A stretch of 64,000 nucleotides of DNA from Ectothiorhodospira sp. BSL-9 (GTDB lineage: Bacteria; Pseudomonadota; Gammaproteobacteria; Ectothiorhodospirales; Ectothiorhodospiraceae), in assembly GCF_001632845.1 (NCBI RefSeq), contig NZ_CP011994.1:558001-622000 (forward strand). The letters run 5' to 3'. Shown here one piece after another: positions 2,972 to 21,363 of the stretch. The translations under genes were made by a program, and so were the position numbers. The notes below the pieces were generated by a model. That model did no database searches. It had not been told where the DNA came from and saw nothing but the letters and a program-made list of their open reading frames with translations. Each line of letters starts with the position of its first letter. The stretch's first letter is position 1.

Positions 2972-3925
2972 TCAGGCCGCTGATCGTCGTCGCTGCTGAC
3001 GATACACTGCCTCAAACCGGGTGCTCTGGTTCACCCACTGATCCGGGGTGATGCCCAGTCGCTCCAGGATGGGCGGCTGCGTGCTGGCAATGGCGCTCTT
3101 CTTCCTCGGATCGATGACCCGCCCGGTGTAGTCCACCAGGGCCAGGTAATCCTCGAAGGCGAACGGAATGCCGGTCTGCTCCTCCTGCACGCACGCGCCC
3201 TCAAAATGCAGCAGCGGTTTCACCTTGCCATCGAACCGCAGCAGGGCGTCCAGCTGCATCTGCTCGCGCACGGCCTGCCCCAGGTTGAACCGGGGCATGA
3301 TCCGTTCCCGGATGCTGGTGTGCTGCGATTCCTCCGGGGTGGACGCCATGCCGGCCCGCACCGGATTGAGATCAACATAGGCCATGCAACTGAGCAGCGC
3401 CGCCTCGGTGCGCAGCGCCTGGGACTTGAATCGCGCCTCCCAGAAATGCCCGGTGCAGCCATCCTCCCGGTTGGCCTGGCGGGCAATGGGCTCATTCAGG
3501 CACTTCATGAACCAGCTCAGGTCCGCCAGCCGCCGCCGGTAGCACTGGGCAAATTCCGCCACCTGGGCCAGCTCAAAGCTTTCCTGCGGCGCTCCGGCCA
3601 GGTACCGCTGGACCAGCAGGGGCCCCTTGAACAGGCAGCTCCAGCGCCGCAGCACCTCGTCATCGGACCACCGCTCGGCGTGCGTCGGCTCCAGCTTGAC
3701 CACCAGGTGATAATGATTGGACATGACCGCGTAGGCGGCGATGTCCACGGCGAACAGGGAGGCCAGCAGCCGGATACGGTCCTCGATCCATTGCCGGCGG
3801 TGTTCATAGCTCTTGCCAGTGGCGTGATCCTGGCCACACAGGAAGGTGCGCCGCACACAGCGCGAGACGACGTGGTAGTGAGGGGTGTCGGTGACCGATA
3901 TCTGCTGGCAACGGGGGCGTGGCAT
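2972..3925 (-). CDS. REP-associated tyrosine transposase (RAYT) copy 2, full length
   Basis: The 317-residue product belongs to the Y1/TnpA_REP transposase family. The HUH motif is NHYHLVV (His71, His73) and the catalytic tyrosine is Tyr183 in AYVDLNPVRAG, aligning with the known Tyr115 helix of E. coli RAYT (YIYINPV). RAYTs are single-strand nucleases that mobilise REP/REPIN sequences. The start has a strong ribosome site (CCAGGAGGGACAC). The gene diverges from a BrnT/HTH pair across 139 bases, an arrangement repeated at 5993-7677 and 8910-10198. Copies at 5993 and 12245 are nearly identical, which points to recent duplication. Confidence 0.93.
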   Translation of the reverse strand: MPRPRCQQISVTDTPHYHVVSRCVRRTFLCGQDHATGKSYEHRRQWIEDRIRLLASLFAVDIAAYAVMSNHYHLVVKLEPTHAERWSDDEVLRRWSCLFKGPLLVQRYLAGAPQESFELAQVAEFAQCYRRRLADLSWFMKCLNEPIARQANREDGCTGHFWEARFKSQALRTEAALLSCMAYVDLNPVRAGMASTPEESQHTSIRERIMPRFNLGQAVREQMQLDALLRFDGKVKPLLHFEGACVQEEQTGIPFAFEDYLALVDYTGRVIDPRKKSAIASTQPPILERLGITPDQWVNQSTRFEAVYRQQRRRSAA

Positions 3926-15706: not shown

Positions 15707-16330
15707 ATGAAAAGATTGGTAAGCATCGGCGAGGCCGCCAAGGCGCTGGGCGTGTCCATTACGACCCTGCGCCGCTGGGAAGCATCGGGGAGGTTGGTGC
15801 CTGAGCACACAGCGGGCGGCCATCGCCGTTACGACCTGGCGAAACTCCGGCCCGAGATGTTCCGGGCCGAGGAAGATGCAGGGCGGCGCACCGTGGCCTA
15901 TGCTCGCGTGTCCAGCCATGATCAGAAGGAGGATCTGGAGCGGCAGAAACAGGTGCTGGAACTTTACTGCGCTCAGCAGGGATGGACGTTCGAGTTGATT
16001 TCCGACCTTGGTTCAGGGATGAACTATCACAAGAAAGGTTTGAAGCGACTGCTTGATGCCATCATCGATGGGGAAGTCGGGCGACTGGTGATCACCCATA
16101 AGGATCGGCTTTTGCGCTTCGGGGCCGAGTTGGTCTTTGCCATCTGCGAAGCCCGGGAGGTCGAGGTGGTGATTCTCAACCAGGGTGAAGATGCGACCTT
16201 TGAAGAGGACCTGGCGAAGGATGTGCTGGAGATCATCACCGTGTTCAGCGCCCGACTCTACGGCAGCCGCTCGCGCAAGAACCAGAGGCTGCTGGACGGC
16301 GTGAAGAAGGCCGTGGAGGACGCGACATGA
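15707..16330 (+). CDS. tnpA: IS607 serine recombinase TnpA
   Basis: The product is about 207 residues. The N-terminal MerR-like helix-turn-helix (SIGEAAKALGVSITTLRRWE) is followed by a serine recombinase domain with YARVSSHDQKEDLERQ (catalytic Ser about residue 69), DLGSGMNYHKKGL and HKDRLLRFG. This HTH-first order is diagnostic of IS607 TnpA. The ATG at 15707 is chosen because MKRLVSIGEAA is the family N-terminus; in-frame starts at 15671 (TTG) and 15695 also exist, none with a good ribosome site. The 3' end overlaps tnpB by 4 bases. Confidence 0.88.
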   Translation: MKRLVSIGEAAKALGVSITTLRRWEASGRLVPEHTAGGHRRYDLAKLRPEMFRAEEDAGRRTVAYARVSSHDQKEDLERQKQVLELYCAQQGWTFELISDLGSGMNYHKKGLKRLLDAIIDGEVGRLVITHKDRLLRFGAELVFAICEAREVEVVILNQGEDATFEEDLAKDVLEIITVFSARLYGSRSRKNQRLLDGVKKAVEDAT

Positions 16331-17520
16331 TCCGTGCCCACAGGATTGCGCTTGCGCCCAACAACAGGCAGGCGACCTATTTTGCCCGCGCGGCAGGCAC
16401 GGCACGTTTTGCCTACAACTGGGCGTTGGCCGAATGGCAGTGCCAGTACGCGGCCTGGAAGCAGGACAGCAGTCTGCCCAAACCCTCGCAGGCGGCGCTT
16501 CGTCGCCAGTTGAACGCTGTCAAGCGCGAGCAGTTTCCATGGATGCTGGAGGTCACCAAAACGGCACCGCAGATGGCGATCATCCAATTGGGTGAAGCCT
16601 TCAAGCACTTCTTTGCCGGTCGGGCCAGGTATCCGAAGTTCCGCAAAAAAGGCGTTCATGACCGATTCACACTCACCAACGACCAGTTCCGCGTCGAAGG
16701 CTCCCGCATCCGCATCCCCAACCTTGGCTGGGTGCGGATGCGGGAGTCGTTGCGCTTTACCGGCAAAATCATGTCCGCGACGATCTCCCGCGTCGCCGAC
16801 CGCTGGTTTGTCAGCATCACCGTAGACACCGAAGACCCACCCAGGCGACCGGCTGAAAACCAAGGCTCGGTCGGGGTGGATCTGGGGGTCTTGGCACTGG
16901 CCACGCTCTCGACGGGAGACACCATGACGGGCCCCAAGGCGCATACCGCCGTGCTCAAGCGACTCCGTCGGCTATCACGCAGCCTGTCGCGCAAGCAAAA
17001 AGGCTCCAGCAACCGGAACAAGGCCAAGGCGAAACTGGCACGGCTGCATACCCGCATTGCCAACATTCGCCAAGATGCCTTGCACAAACTCACGTCGGAT
17101 CTGACCCGGCGGTTTCATACCATCGGCATCGAGGATCTGAATGTGCGCGGCATGATGGCGAACCGGCATCTGGCCCGATCCATTGCCGACATGAGCTTTC
17201 ATGAGTTCCGGCGGCAACTGGCGTACAAGGCAGATCAGCGGGGTGGGCAGGTGGTGGTGGCCGACCGCTGGTTCCCCAGCAGCAAAATGTGTTCGGTTTG
17301 TGGATCGGTGCAGAAGGTCATGCCACTATCCACGCGGCAGTGGATTTGCCCGGACTGTGGCGTACACCACAACCGGGATGTGAATGCGGCAAGAAATCTT
17401 GCCCATTACGCCGTGAGTTCCACGGTGTCAGCCTGTGGAGAGGAAGGCGCTGGCTCAGGTCGCAAGACCGGAGTGAAACCGGCCTCTGTGAAGCAGGAAA
17501 TCAGCACTGAACCTGTTTAG
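16327..17520 (+). CDS. tnpB: TnpB RNA-guided nuclease (IS607-associated)
   Basis: The 397-residue product retains the RuvC triad: Asp185 (GVDLGV), Glu269 (IGIEDLNV) and Asp351 (NRDVNAARN). The zinc ribbon CSVCG...CPDCG (Cys322, 325, 341, 344) is also intact. TnpB proteins use an omega RNA from the element's right end to cut DNA and help retain the element. The gene overlaps tnpA (ATGA). With all catalytic and zinc residues present it may be functional. Confidence 0.93.
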   Translation: MIRAHRIALAPNNRQATYFARAAGTARFAYNWALAEWQCQYAAWKQDSSLPKPSQAALRRQLNAVKREQFPWMLEVTKTAPQMAIIQLGEAFKHFFAGRARYPKFRKKGVHDRFTLTNDQFRVEGSRIRIPNLGWVRMRESLRFTGKIMSATISRVADRWFVSITVDTEDPPRRPAENQGSVGVDLGVLALATLSTGDTMTGPKAHTAVLKRLRRLSRSLSRKQKGSSNRNKAKAKLARLHTRIANIRQDALHKLTSDLTRRFHTIGIEDLNVRGMMANRHLARSIADMSFHEFRRQLAYKADQRGGQVVVADRWFPSSKMCSVCGSVQKVMPLSTRQWICPDCGVHHNRDVNAARNLAHYAVSSTVSACGEEGAGSGRKTGVKPASVKQEISTEPV

Positions 17521-17961: not shown

Positions 17962-18279
17962 CGCATCTACAATAATTTCATAAGTACGCGTTACTGCTGG
18001 GACGAAACCAAACGGCAGGCCAACCTTGAAAAGCACGGCCTTGACTTTGTCGATGCCGATTTGGTGTTGGCAAGCGAATATCGGCTGGATGTGCCCAGTG
18101 AGCGCAATGACGAGCAACGAGTGCAGTCTTTTGCCTACGTGTTTGAGGTGCTCACCGTGTTGACGGTGGTGTATCTGCCCGGAGTGGATGGCTTTCGTGT
18201 CATCAGCTTTCGCCGGGCCAATCGTTCGGAAAGAGGTGTCTACCATGAGTGGCTTGAAAACAACGACGCTGACGCTTGA
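17962..18279 (+). pseudogene. Second BrnT-type toxin gene, no canonical start codon
   Basis: The open frame from 17962 encodes a BrnT-like sequence from CWDETKRQANLEKHGLDFVD through YVFEVLTVLTVVYLPG to FRVISFRRANRSERGVY. No ATG, GTG or TTG lies in frame before the conserved N-terminus; the first is the GTG near 18062, inside the domain. Either a rare start is used or the 5' end is decayed. It overlaps the brnA-like gene by 35 bases. A near-palindrome TGCGTAATTAACGCA at 17951-17965 could be an operator. Protein sequence differs clearly from the BrnT at 7086. Confidence 0.55.
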
Positions 18280-18580
18280 GCAAATGCGTAGCCACCGGGC
18301 ACAGGGCGAATCCAAGACCGACTGGGCGCGGTTGAAATGCGAGGTTGAGGCAGGTGTAGAACCTACCGATGACGAGGATTCACCCGATGCAACCCAGAAA
18401 CTGCGTGAGGTGGTGGAAAAGCGCCAAGTGGGCAGGCCGGCAGGAAGTGGCACCAAGGAACAGGTGTCGATCCGCTTCGACCGGGACGTTCTGCGTGCCT
18501 TTCGCTCCGCTGGGCCTGGGTGGCAGACCCGAATGAACGAGGCGCTGAAGGATTGGCTCAAGACCCACTCCCCGCGCTGA
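18245..18580 (+). CDS. brnA: BrnA-family antitoxin
   Basis: The 111-residue product ends with the ribbon-helix-helix pattern typical of BrnA (GRPAGSGTKEQVSIRFDRDV, then LRAFRSAGPGWQTRMNEALK). The ATG at 18245 is used because it follows AGGTGT and gives the family length. It is coupled to the BrnT-like gene upstream. BrnA binds BrnT and represses the operon. The toxin may be defective, which would leave this as an orphan antitoxin. Confidence 0.85.
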   Translation: MSGLKTTTLTLEQMRSHRAQGESKTDWARLKCEVEAGVEPTDDEDSPDATQKLREVVEKRQVGRPAGSGTKEQVSIRFDRDVLRAFRSAGPGWQTRMNEALKDWLKTHSPR

Positions 18581-18937: not shown

Positions 18938-19135
18938 ATGACCCTGCCCCGCTCGACCCTCGTCTGCCTGGACGAGACGCCCTGGTTCCACGTGATCTCG
19001 CGCTGGGTACGTCGCGCCCTTCTCTGCGCTCAGGATCACTTCACCGGCAACCGCGACGCGCATCGTCGCGGCAGGATTGAGGACTGCATCCTGGAACGGG
19101 CCTCGGTGTTTGCCATTGAGGGAAAGGCCACATGA
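18938..19135 (+). pseudogene. N-terminal fragment of a second RAYT type, copy 2
   Basis: Identical to 10899-11096: 65 codons resembling a RAYT N-terminus with no catalytic residues, whose stop overlaps the rpn start. Confidence 0.75.
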
Positions 19136-20022
19136 GCCAGTTGCTCGACCCCACGAATGATTATGTCTTCAAGCGCCTGTTGACCACCGCCCCGGATCTG
19201 CTGGTGGCCCTGATCAATGATCTGCGCCCCGACCTGCCAAACATCACTTCTGCAGAGGTACTCAACCCCAGCATCGAACCCAGTGAACTCACCGGCAAGT
19301 ACATCATCCTTGATGTGCTGGCCCGCGATGGGCAAGGCCACTGCTACAATGTGGAGATACAGGTGCGCCGCTATGGGGCCTGGCACAAGCGGGGATTGTT
19401 CTATCTGGCTCGCACACTGGGCAACCAACTGGGCGCGGGCGAGGACTATGAGCAATTGCGCGCCTCGGTGGGCTTGCATCTGCTGGACTTCGATCTATTC
19501 ACCCACACGGAGGCAGAGCGCCGGCAGGCCGTGTGGCGCTTTGAGATGCGCGATGAAACCCAGCCCGAGGTCACGCTGGGGAACATCCTGCAGATGAACC
19601 TGATCGAACTGAAAAAGGCCGACATCCTGTGCCTGCCGCCCGGGCCGTTGTCGGACTGGATCACCTTCTTCAAGCACTGGCGAGAGGAATTGACCATGGC
19701 CAAGATCGCCCACGAGCCGGTCCAGCAGGCGGTGAGCCGCCTCAAGGAATTGAGCGCTGACGAGGAAGCCCGCCGCCTGGCCTTCGTGCGCGAGCGCGCC
19801 CTGAGGGACGAGGTGTCGCTGCTGAATGATGCCAAGCGGGAAGGGCGTGAGGAAGGGCGTCATGAGGGCTTTGAAGGATTGCTGCGCGCCCAACTGGTGT
19901 TCAAGTTCGGTGAACTTCCCGGTTGGGTGGATGAGCGCTTATCAACGGCATCCGATGAACAATTGAATTCCTGGGGCACCCGGCTGCTGACGGCCAACAG
20001 CCTGAACGAGCTATTCGGGTAG
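19132..20022 (+). CDS. Rpn-family PD-(D/E)XK nuclease, intact copy
   Basis: The 296-residue product starts SQLLDPTNDYVFKRLL and carries the PD-(D/E)XK core (Asp in IILDVLARD, Glu and Gln in YNVEIQVRR). The conserved lipid-like middle region is FYLARTLGNQLGAGEDYEQL, followed by a REGREEGRHEG linker and the C-terminal domain ending LLTANSLNELFG. It is coupled to a RAYT fragment by ATGA. An internal ATG at 19696, preceded by GAGAGGA at 9-base spacing, could give a 108-residue C-terminal product, as known for E. coli rpn genes. Recombination-promoting or antiphage activity is family knowledge, not shown here. Confidence 0.9.
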   Translation: MSQLLDPTNDYVFKRLLTTAPDLLVALINDLRPDLPNITSAEVLNPSIEPSELTGKYIILDVLARDGQGHCYNVEIQVRRYGAWHKRGLFYLARTLGNQLGAGEDYEQLRASVGLHLLDFDLFTHTEAERRQAVWRFEMRDETQPEVTLGNILQMNLIELKKADILCLPPGPLSDWITFFKHWREELTMAKIAHEPVQQAVSRLKELSADEEARRLAFVRERALRDEVSLLNDAKREGREEGRHEGFEGLLRAQLVFKFGELPGWVDERLSTASDEQLNSWGTRLLTANSLNELFG

Positions 20023-20147: not shown

Positions 20148-20229
20148 GTGGGAGCTGGCCTTGCCGGCGATGCGCTGCGCCAGCAGCGCCGAGGCCAAGC
20201 CACGTGCCCACCGCTTTCGCGGGCGGGGC
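20148..20229. repeat. Disrupted REPIN, copy 4
   Basis: The left arm GTGGGAGCTGGCCTTGCCGG is intact. The right arm is diverged and ends within CGCGGGCGGGGCC, directly fused to the truncated end of RAYT copy 7. Confidence 0.75.
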
Positions 20230-20556
20230 CAAGTACCGCTGGACCAGCATCGGCCCCTTGAACAGGCAGCTCCAGCGCCGCAGCACCTCGTCATCGGACC
20301 AGCGACCGGCTTGGGTCGGCTCCAGCTTGACCACCAGGTGATAATGATTGGACATGACTGCGTAGGCGGCGATGTCCACGGCGAACAGGGAGGCCGGCAG
20401 CCGGATACGGTCCTCGATCCATTGCCGGCGGTGTTCAAAGCTCTTGCCAGTGGCATGATCCTGGCCACACAGGAAGGTGCGCCGCACACAGCGCGAGACG
20501 ACGTGGTAGTACGGGGTGTCAGTGACCGATATCTGCTGGCAACGGGGGCGTGGCAT
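20230..20556 (-). pseudogene. RAYT transposase copy 7, 3'-truncated
   Basis: Residues 1-109 of the main RAYT are present, with HUH His71/His73, up to LVQRYL. The rest is replaced by a damaged REPIN. Its 5' flank (GTTTTTTCCCGG) matches RAYT copy 5. Confidence 0.88.
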
Positions 20557-20639
20557 GTGTCCCTCCTGGACGGTTTTTTCCCGGTCGAATCCTTGCTGAT
20601 TCTAACGCACCAACAGCCCCGCCTCCTTCACCACCACAC

Positions 20640-20718
20640 GTGGCGATGCACCAATATCATACGTATAATAAAACGTACTATATTACACCCCCCCCCCCCC
20701 CCCCCACGGAGGATCGTT
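20640..20718 (+). promoter_or_regulatory. Promoter region with an 18-base poly-C tract upstream of phd
   Basis: A TATAAT box at 20664-20669 lies within inverted ACGTAT/ACGTACT elements, a possible Phd operator. An uninterrupted run of 18 C (20688-20705) sits between it and the GGAGG ribosome site at 20709. A homopolymer of this length would be expected to vary in length. Confidence 0.6.
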
Positions 20719-21009
20719 ATGGCATCCCTATTGGATCGTCCTGAAGATGCAGTCTCTGCGACATCCATGGCACGAGGTTTCAGCGCTCATCTCAAGGAAG
20801 TATCGGCCCGACAGACCGACAGGCTTGTCATCTTCAAGGATAATCAGCCCGTTGCGGTAATGATGAATGTGCAGGCGTATCAAGACCTTGTCGATGAACT
20901 GGAAGATCTGCGCATTGAGGCGGTGGCACGGGATCGGTTAACCACTTATCAGGTCGACCAAGCCGTCTCCCATGAAGATATGCGCTCCCTTTTCGAGCAA
21001 GGCGACTGA
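20719..21009 (+). CDS. Phd/YefM-family antitoxin
   Basis: The 96-residue product has the Phd/YefM N-terminal DNA-binding pattern (ATSMARGFSAHLKEVSARQT, then VIFKDNQPVAVMMNVQAYQD) and a C-terminal toxin-binding helix. The ATG follows GGAGG by 7 bases. It is placed 3 bases before a RelE-type toxin and would repress the pair through the AT-rich inverted repeat upstream. Confidence 0.9.
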   Translation: MASLLDRPEDAVSATSMARGFSAHLKEVSARQTDRLVIFKDNQPVAVMMNVQAYQDLVDELEDLRIEAVARDRLTTYQVDQAVSHEDMRSLFEQGD

Positions 21010-21012
21010 CCC

Positions 21013-21300
21013 GTGACATGGAAGGTGATCTACCATCCGGGCGTCCGGCAAGACCTGGAGCGATTGGGTTCTGCTGCTGCCAAACGGGTTCTTGATGTCA
21101 TTGAGGAGCGCATTCGTGATGGCGAACCCGAAAAGCTGGGAAGGCTGCTGCGTGGTGCCTTGGCCGATTGCCGACGAATCCGAACGGGTAATACCCGGAT
21201 CGTGTACAGGGTGGATGGAGACGCCATACAGGTGCTGATCATTGCTGTGGGTGCGAGACGTGACAAGGAGGTCTACAAGCTCGCCGACCAGCGTGCCTGA
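21013..21300 (+). CDS. RelE/ParE-family toxin
   Basis: The 95-residue product starts at a GTG 3 bases after the antitoxin stop; the nearby ATG is out of frame. The RelE fold pattern is clear: WKVIYHPGVRQDLERL, LLRGALADCRRIRTGNTRIV, YRVDGDAIQVLIIAVGARRD. These proteins are usually ribosome-dependent mRNA endonucleases. A GACAGGCACTC repeat follows at about 21323. Confidence 0.9.
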   Translation: MTWKVIYHPGVRQDLERLGSAAAKRVLDVIEERIRDGEPEKLGRLLRGALADCRRIRTGNTRIVYRVDGDAIQVLIIAVGARRDKEVYKLADQRA

Positions 21301-21363
21301 ACAATGGCCGGCATCCGGCACAAGGGACAGGCACTCTTGACCATCCGCATCATCTCGGCACGC

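Follow-up and report, generated by a model that had tools for sequence, protein, structure and literature searches.

The antitoxin-toxin operon and its surroundings

The window, by which we mean the whole 64-kb stretch that was analysed of the genome of the purple sulfur bacterium Ectothiorhodospira sp. BSL-9, carries a two-gene operon of the predicted type II toxin-antitoxin (TA) kind, the 5' leader of which contains a long poly-C tract (Table 1). Several features ally the locus with the Phd/YefM-ParE/RelE operons, namely the antitoxin-toxin order, the close spacing of the two genes, a toxin scoring above its family cut-off and a palindrome over the -10 element, whereas an antitoxin scoring below the Pfam cut-off and the C18 leader set it apart. 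The low antitoxin score is shared by five homologous antitoxins scanned against the same PF02604 model, which reach 20.8-23.8 bits and are likewise under the cut-off, and a plasmid protein 54% identical to the antitoxin is annotated as a Phd/YefM family antitoxin. The toxin matches RelE-type structures at E values from 8e-7 to 0.003 and scores 22.5 bits against TIGR02385 (RelE_StbE), under the cut-off of 27.9; for the antitoxin no convincing structural match was found by sequence, and no PADLOC model matched either protein with an E value of 0.01 or less. A toxin gene follows the antitoxin in 36 of 39 loci, in one of them by a 28-residue match only.

Table 1. Coordinates of the operon, its leader and neighbouring features within the window
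Feature	Position	Strand	Evidence or remark
TnpB-family gene	16327..17520		no internal stops
BrnA-type antitoxin ORF	18188..18580		PF14384; close to the Phd-like TA operon
Rpn/PDDEXK_2 family gene	19132..20022		adjoins the TA operon
Multicopy element, edge adjoining the promoter	20227..20613	-	92-96% identical copies elsewhere in the window; ORF without Pfam match
Imperfect palindrome, probable autoregulatory operator overlapping the -10	20655..20680	+	TATAAT at 20664-20669
C18 homopolymer in the 5' leader	20688..20705	+	sequence
Shine-Dalgarno (SD) GGAGG	20708..20712	+	six bases ahead of the antitoxin ATG; starts two bases past the tract
Antitoxin, Phd/YefM-like, 96 aa, ATG start	20719..21009	+	PF02604, E=1.6e-4, 21.8 bits against a cut-off of 29.8 (below)
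Toxin, ParE/RelE superfamily, 95 aa, GTG start	21013..21300	+	PF05016, 41.6 bits against a cut-off of 23 (above)

Comparison with the nearest relative, which we took to be Ectothiorhodospira haloalkaliphila (G007, NZ_KK214998.1), yields 10 synonymous and 4 non-synonymous differences in the antitoxin gene (on 67 and 221 sites, uncorrected), and 10 and 13, respectively, in the toxin gene (75 and 210 sites, uncorrected). These counts indicate that the antitoxin is under purifying selection and that the toxin is less constrained. Since the antitoxin shows purifying selection, the operon is not decayed and, by analogy with other operons of this kind, most likely works as usual.

The -35 element of the promoter is weak (TGGCGA, counted by hand), and the TATAAT promoter is absent from the listing of a sigma-70 consensus scan. 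In the Phd/YefM families the antitoxin, or the antitoxin-toxin complex, binds a palindrome over the -10 element and represses transcription, and by this analogy the palindrome of the window is probably an operator. Its counterpart in E. haloalkaliphila is perfect (TAGTACG-N10-CGTACTA), and similar palindromes surround TATAAT in some of the Halomonas-type homologs.

The multicopy element upstream of the promoter, which we take to be REP/RAYT-like, carries an HYH motif and recurs in at least five more copies of 275-390 bp in the window (near 3596, 6624, 9139, 12869 and 14297; 92-96% identity). The other genes listed upstream have some parallels in the genus: in E. haloalkaliphila a 95% identical TnpB stretch, partly duplicated, precedes the same TA operon by about 1.8 kb, and fragments related to Rpn/PDDEXK_2 are found upstream of the operon in both E. 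haloalkaliphila and E. marina.

The poly-C tract and its expected frequency

The homopolymer consists of exactly 18 cytosines, flanked by TATATTACA and ACGGAGGATCGTTATG. A preliminary description of this DNA had placed such a run between the promoter and the ribosome site of a phd-relE operon and judged it far outside chance, and on both counts we concur, the probable TATAAT -10 element with its operator lying upstream of the tract and GGAGG downstream. It is the only run of at least 12 in the window, where the next C-runs are one of 11 and six of seven, and it is the longest C or G run of the window and of the genome, a single 3.55-Mb contig of 63% GC. The whole genome (3,550,080 bases, both strands) contains ten distinct C/G runs of at least 10, of which seven have just this length, two have 11 and the remaining one is C18. 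Under a first-order Markov model of the window, about 8e-5 C-runs of at least 18 would be expected per window and 0.007 C/G runs of this size per genome. This estimate of rarity is conservative because the model over-predicts long runs, giving 59 C/G runs of at least 10 per genome against the 10 observed.

Leaders of related operons

The antitoxin was found in three of ten Ectothiorhodospira genomes, including BSL-9 itself; E. haloalkaliphila has two copies, one of them truncated, and the copy of the third genome (G009) is truncated as well. The second copy of E. haloalkaliphila (L039, 3001-3280) retains the SD region and is devoid of both promoter and toxin. The complete copy belongs to the same operon as in BSL-9 and has a near-identical leader, in which CCTCCC stands where the window has C18: it reads CACCTCCCACGGAGG, the counterpart in the window being CA-C18-ACGGAGG, and the two sequences align with 93% identity over 20660-20689 and again with 93% over 20700-21304. 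Promoter-homologous leaders within the genus number two, those of the window and of E. haloalkaliphila, and the ancestry of the tract is read from this one pair together with the distant homologs, the leaders of which align poorly.

In genome contigs, 39 antitoxin loci were collected, of which one with a truncated antitoxin (L062) was left out. In all 38 remaining homologous leaders the longest C-run within the last 60 nt ahead of the ATG is three or fewer, so that a tract of the kind that phase-variable loci keep among relatives recurs at this locus in none of the 38 (no C-run above three). The single homolog on a viral contig likewise has no C tract; a plasmid search returned three distant antitoxin homologs and a phage search found none. 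The window has 49 nt between the -10-like hexamer and the ATG; this distance ranges from 30 to 46 nt among six homologs that have TATAAT or TATATT (L027-L029, L032, L033 and L037), the weaker -10 calls of other homologs, above all those of Pseudomonas, having been left out.

Tract length and leader function

A phase-variable tract would be expected to sit where a change in its length alters the reading frame, the -35/-10 spacing or the structure of the RNA. Here the tract is untranslated and lies between the -10 element and the SD, such that the number of cytosines affects neither the -35/-10 spacing, nor the operator, nor the distance from SD to ATG. Folding predictions, which leave out G-quadruplex or i-motif DNA and pairing with sRNA, were made for leaders that had 0 to 30 C and extended 40 or 60 nt into the coding region. 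For the lengths tried between C10 and C30 the energy predicted for opening the SD stayed level, at 5.37-5.43 kcal/mol for the 40-nt extension and at 5.36-5.54 kcal/mol for the 60-nt one; tracts shorter than C10 gave 4.3-5.4 kcal/mol. The preliminary description had expected a length change to alter leader structure or the spacing between promoter and ribosome site. Predicted SD accessibility does not respond to length from C10 to C30, the spacings listed above lie outside the tract and the homologs vary their promoter-to-ATG distance without any homopolymer. Its further suggestion, that the tract could phase-vary expression of the operon, thus finds no support in the leaders of the 38 homologs, in the length-insensitive folding or in the neutral position of the run.

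The E. haloalkaliphila leader has a higher predicted SD opening energy, 7.4-7.5 kcal/mol against 5.4 in the window. It folds CCTCC-CAC-GGAGG over the SD in the 40-nt fold, competing folds appearing in longer contexts, and this pairing is lost in the C18 leader. According to the folding model, loss of the T may therefore have weakened, as a single event, a small hairpin at the SD. As an explanation of the tract, a release of the SD was set aside: it would be a possible one-time effect of losing the T, independent of length, and the hairpin is not seen by eye in the leaders of distant homologs. The arrangement CCTCC-loop-GGAGG ahead of an ATG occurs in 103 of 369 genomes of the class, by eye above a reversed control.

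Long C and G runs in related genomes

C or G runs of at least 13 occur in 17 of 47 genomes of the family, in unrelated contexts. Among the loci read, several abut contig ends or N (L066, L067, L073, L078-L080, L082 and L084) and are likely artefacts; the internal ones, including G18 in G040 and C21 in G046, stand in varied contexts. Nine of ten internal tracts from other genomes fall inside an open frame of at least 90 codons, which in such GC-rich DNA is no proof of coding. No TA genes adjoin these other tracts in the flanks read, and long tracts thus arise sporadically in the family with no link to TA operons seen. The C21 run (L075, 1501-1521) directly follows ATG AAC TCG, the first three codons of a possible frame, and would be better placed for frame-switching than the tract in BSL-9, provided that so short a frame represents a gene in the first place. 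Across the class, at least 12 C followed by GGAGG and ATG are found in two of 369 genomes, BSL-9 and G276, the latter match consisting of inverted-repeat DNA, where inspection by eye of the part read showed no TA operon.

Origin of the tract and alternative explanations

We think it likely that C18 is a lineage-specific homopolymer, probably expanded by slippage, in the 5' UTR of an otherwise ordinary type II TA operon, lineage-specific because the leaders of its relatives, from the CCTCCC of E. haloalkaliphila to the more distant homologs, have no such run. A T-to-C change in an ancestral CCTCCC, or loss of its T, would have created an uninterrupted run of about six C, which strand slippage could then have lengthened, there being no strong selection in the leader against a longer run. 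Length instability of the run is probable, and its length should affect expression little since promoter, operator, SD and SD-ATG spacing are all outside the tract. Counting against such drift are the size of the run, well beyond what composition predicts, and mismatch repair genes that look intact: mutS and mutL of the host are both present above cut-off and free of stops, which rules out loss of mismatch repair as the cause of the expansion.

One alternative concerns the sequence itself, the true tract being shorter or longer than 18 or interrupted by another base. The BSL-9 genome was assembled from PacBio reads alone with HGAP v2 at about 300x (PMC5064118), so that the exact C count is uncertain, and the family runs at contig ends or N gaps point the same way; but the coverage is high and homopolymers are not generally inflated in this genome, as the scarcity of other runs above nine attests, and we regard an assembly or consensus error as unlikely. 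A translational switch can be given hardly any credence. Ahead of its ATG the antitoxin frame stays open across the tract, which would be read as six proline codons within an open frame at 20161-21009, and indels could in principle toggle an N-terminally extended product; yet by hand reading no ATG, GTG or TTG is in frame from the probable start of transcription down to the antitoxin ATG, the homologs conserve this ATG with its SD, and the upstream part of the frame runs antisense to the multicopy element.

Transcriptional or post-transcriptional control by the tract can be compared with known homopolymer switches. In Bordetella fim and Neisseria porA and opc, poly-C or poly-G between -35 and -10 sets the spacer length and so causes phase variation. 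The tract of BSL-9 resembles these in being a poly-C run near a promoter but differs in lying downstream of the -10 element instead of in the spacer. In a phase-variable or graded leader, slippage would shift the number of cytosines and, with it, expression of the operon, via a template-strand G-quadruplex or pausing, via transcription slippage or via an sRNA with a G-rich loop that pairs with the tract. The length of the tract beyond chance and its place adjoining the SD would fit such a leader, and a template-strand G18 would be long enough for an intramolecular quadruplex. There is also a precedent in Helicobacter pylori for a 5' UTR homopolymer the length of which grades expression, where RepG sRNA pairs with the G-repeat in the tlpB leader and length-dependent expression was shown (PMC8295292). 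Against this stand the absence of the tract from all 38 homologs, the independence of predicted SD accessibility from length and, as far as their flanks were read, the lack of TA genes next to similar tracts of the family, and we consider a leader of this sort improbable. More doubtful still is its most elaborate form, in which a hypermutable C tract would serve as a graded dial, turned by slippage, for the dosage of antitoxin and toxin, through pausing at a template-strand quadruplex or through an antisense RNA rich in G, with subpopulations differing in their TA set point. RepG-type graded control (PMC8295292) is the closest precedent for such a dial: the tlpB-hp0102 leader likewise has a homopolymer in the 5' UTR of an operon, but there the tract is of G and the sRNA has been shown, whereas here it is of C, known from one genome and absent in relatives. 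In the titles and abstract openings of the open-access literature searched, we found no description of a homopolymer-switched TA operon.

Implications

If the tract did tune expression, contingency-locus switching would be joined here to toxin-antitoxin biology. The slippage-expanded homopolymer that we favour carries a more cautionary meaning, that a single extreme run in one genome is not necessarily a switch, whatever its improbability on composition, and that it is the comparison with relatives which settles most of the matter.
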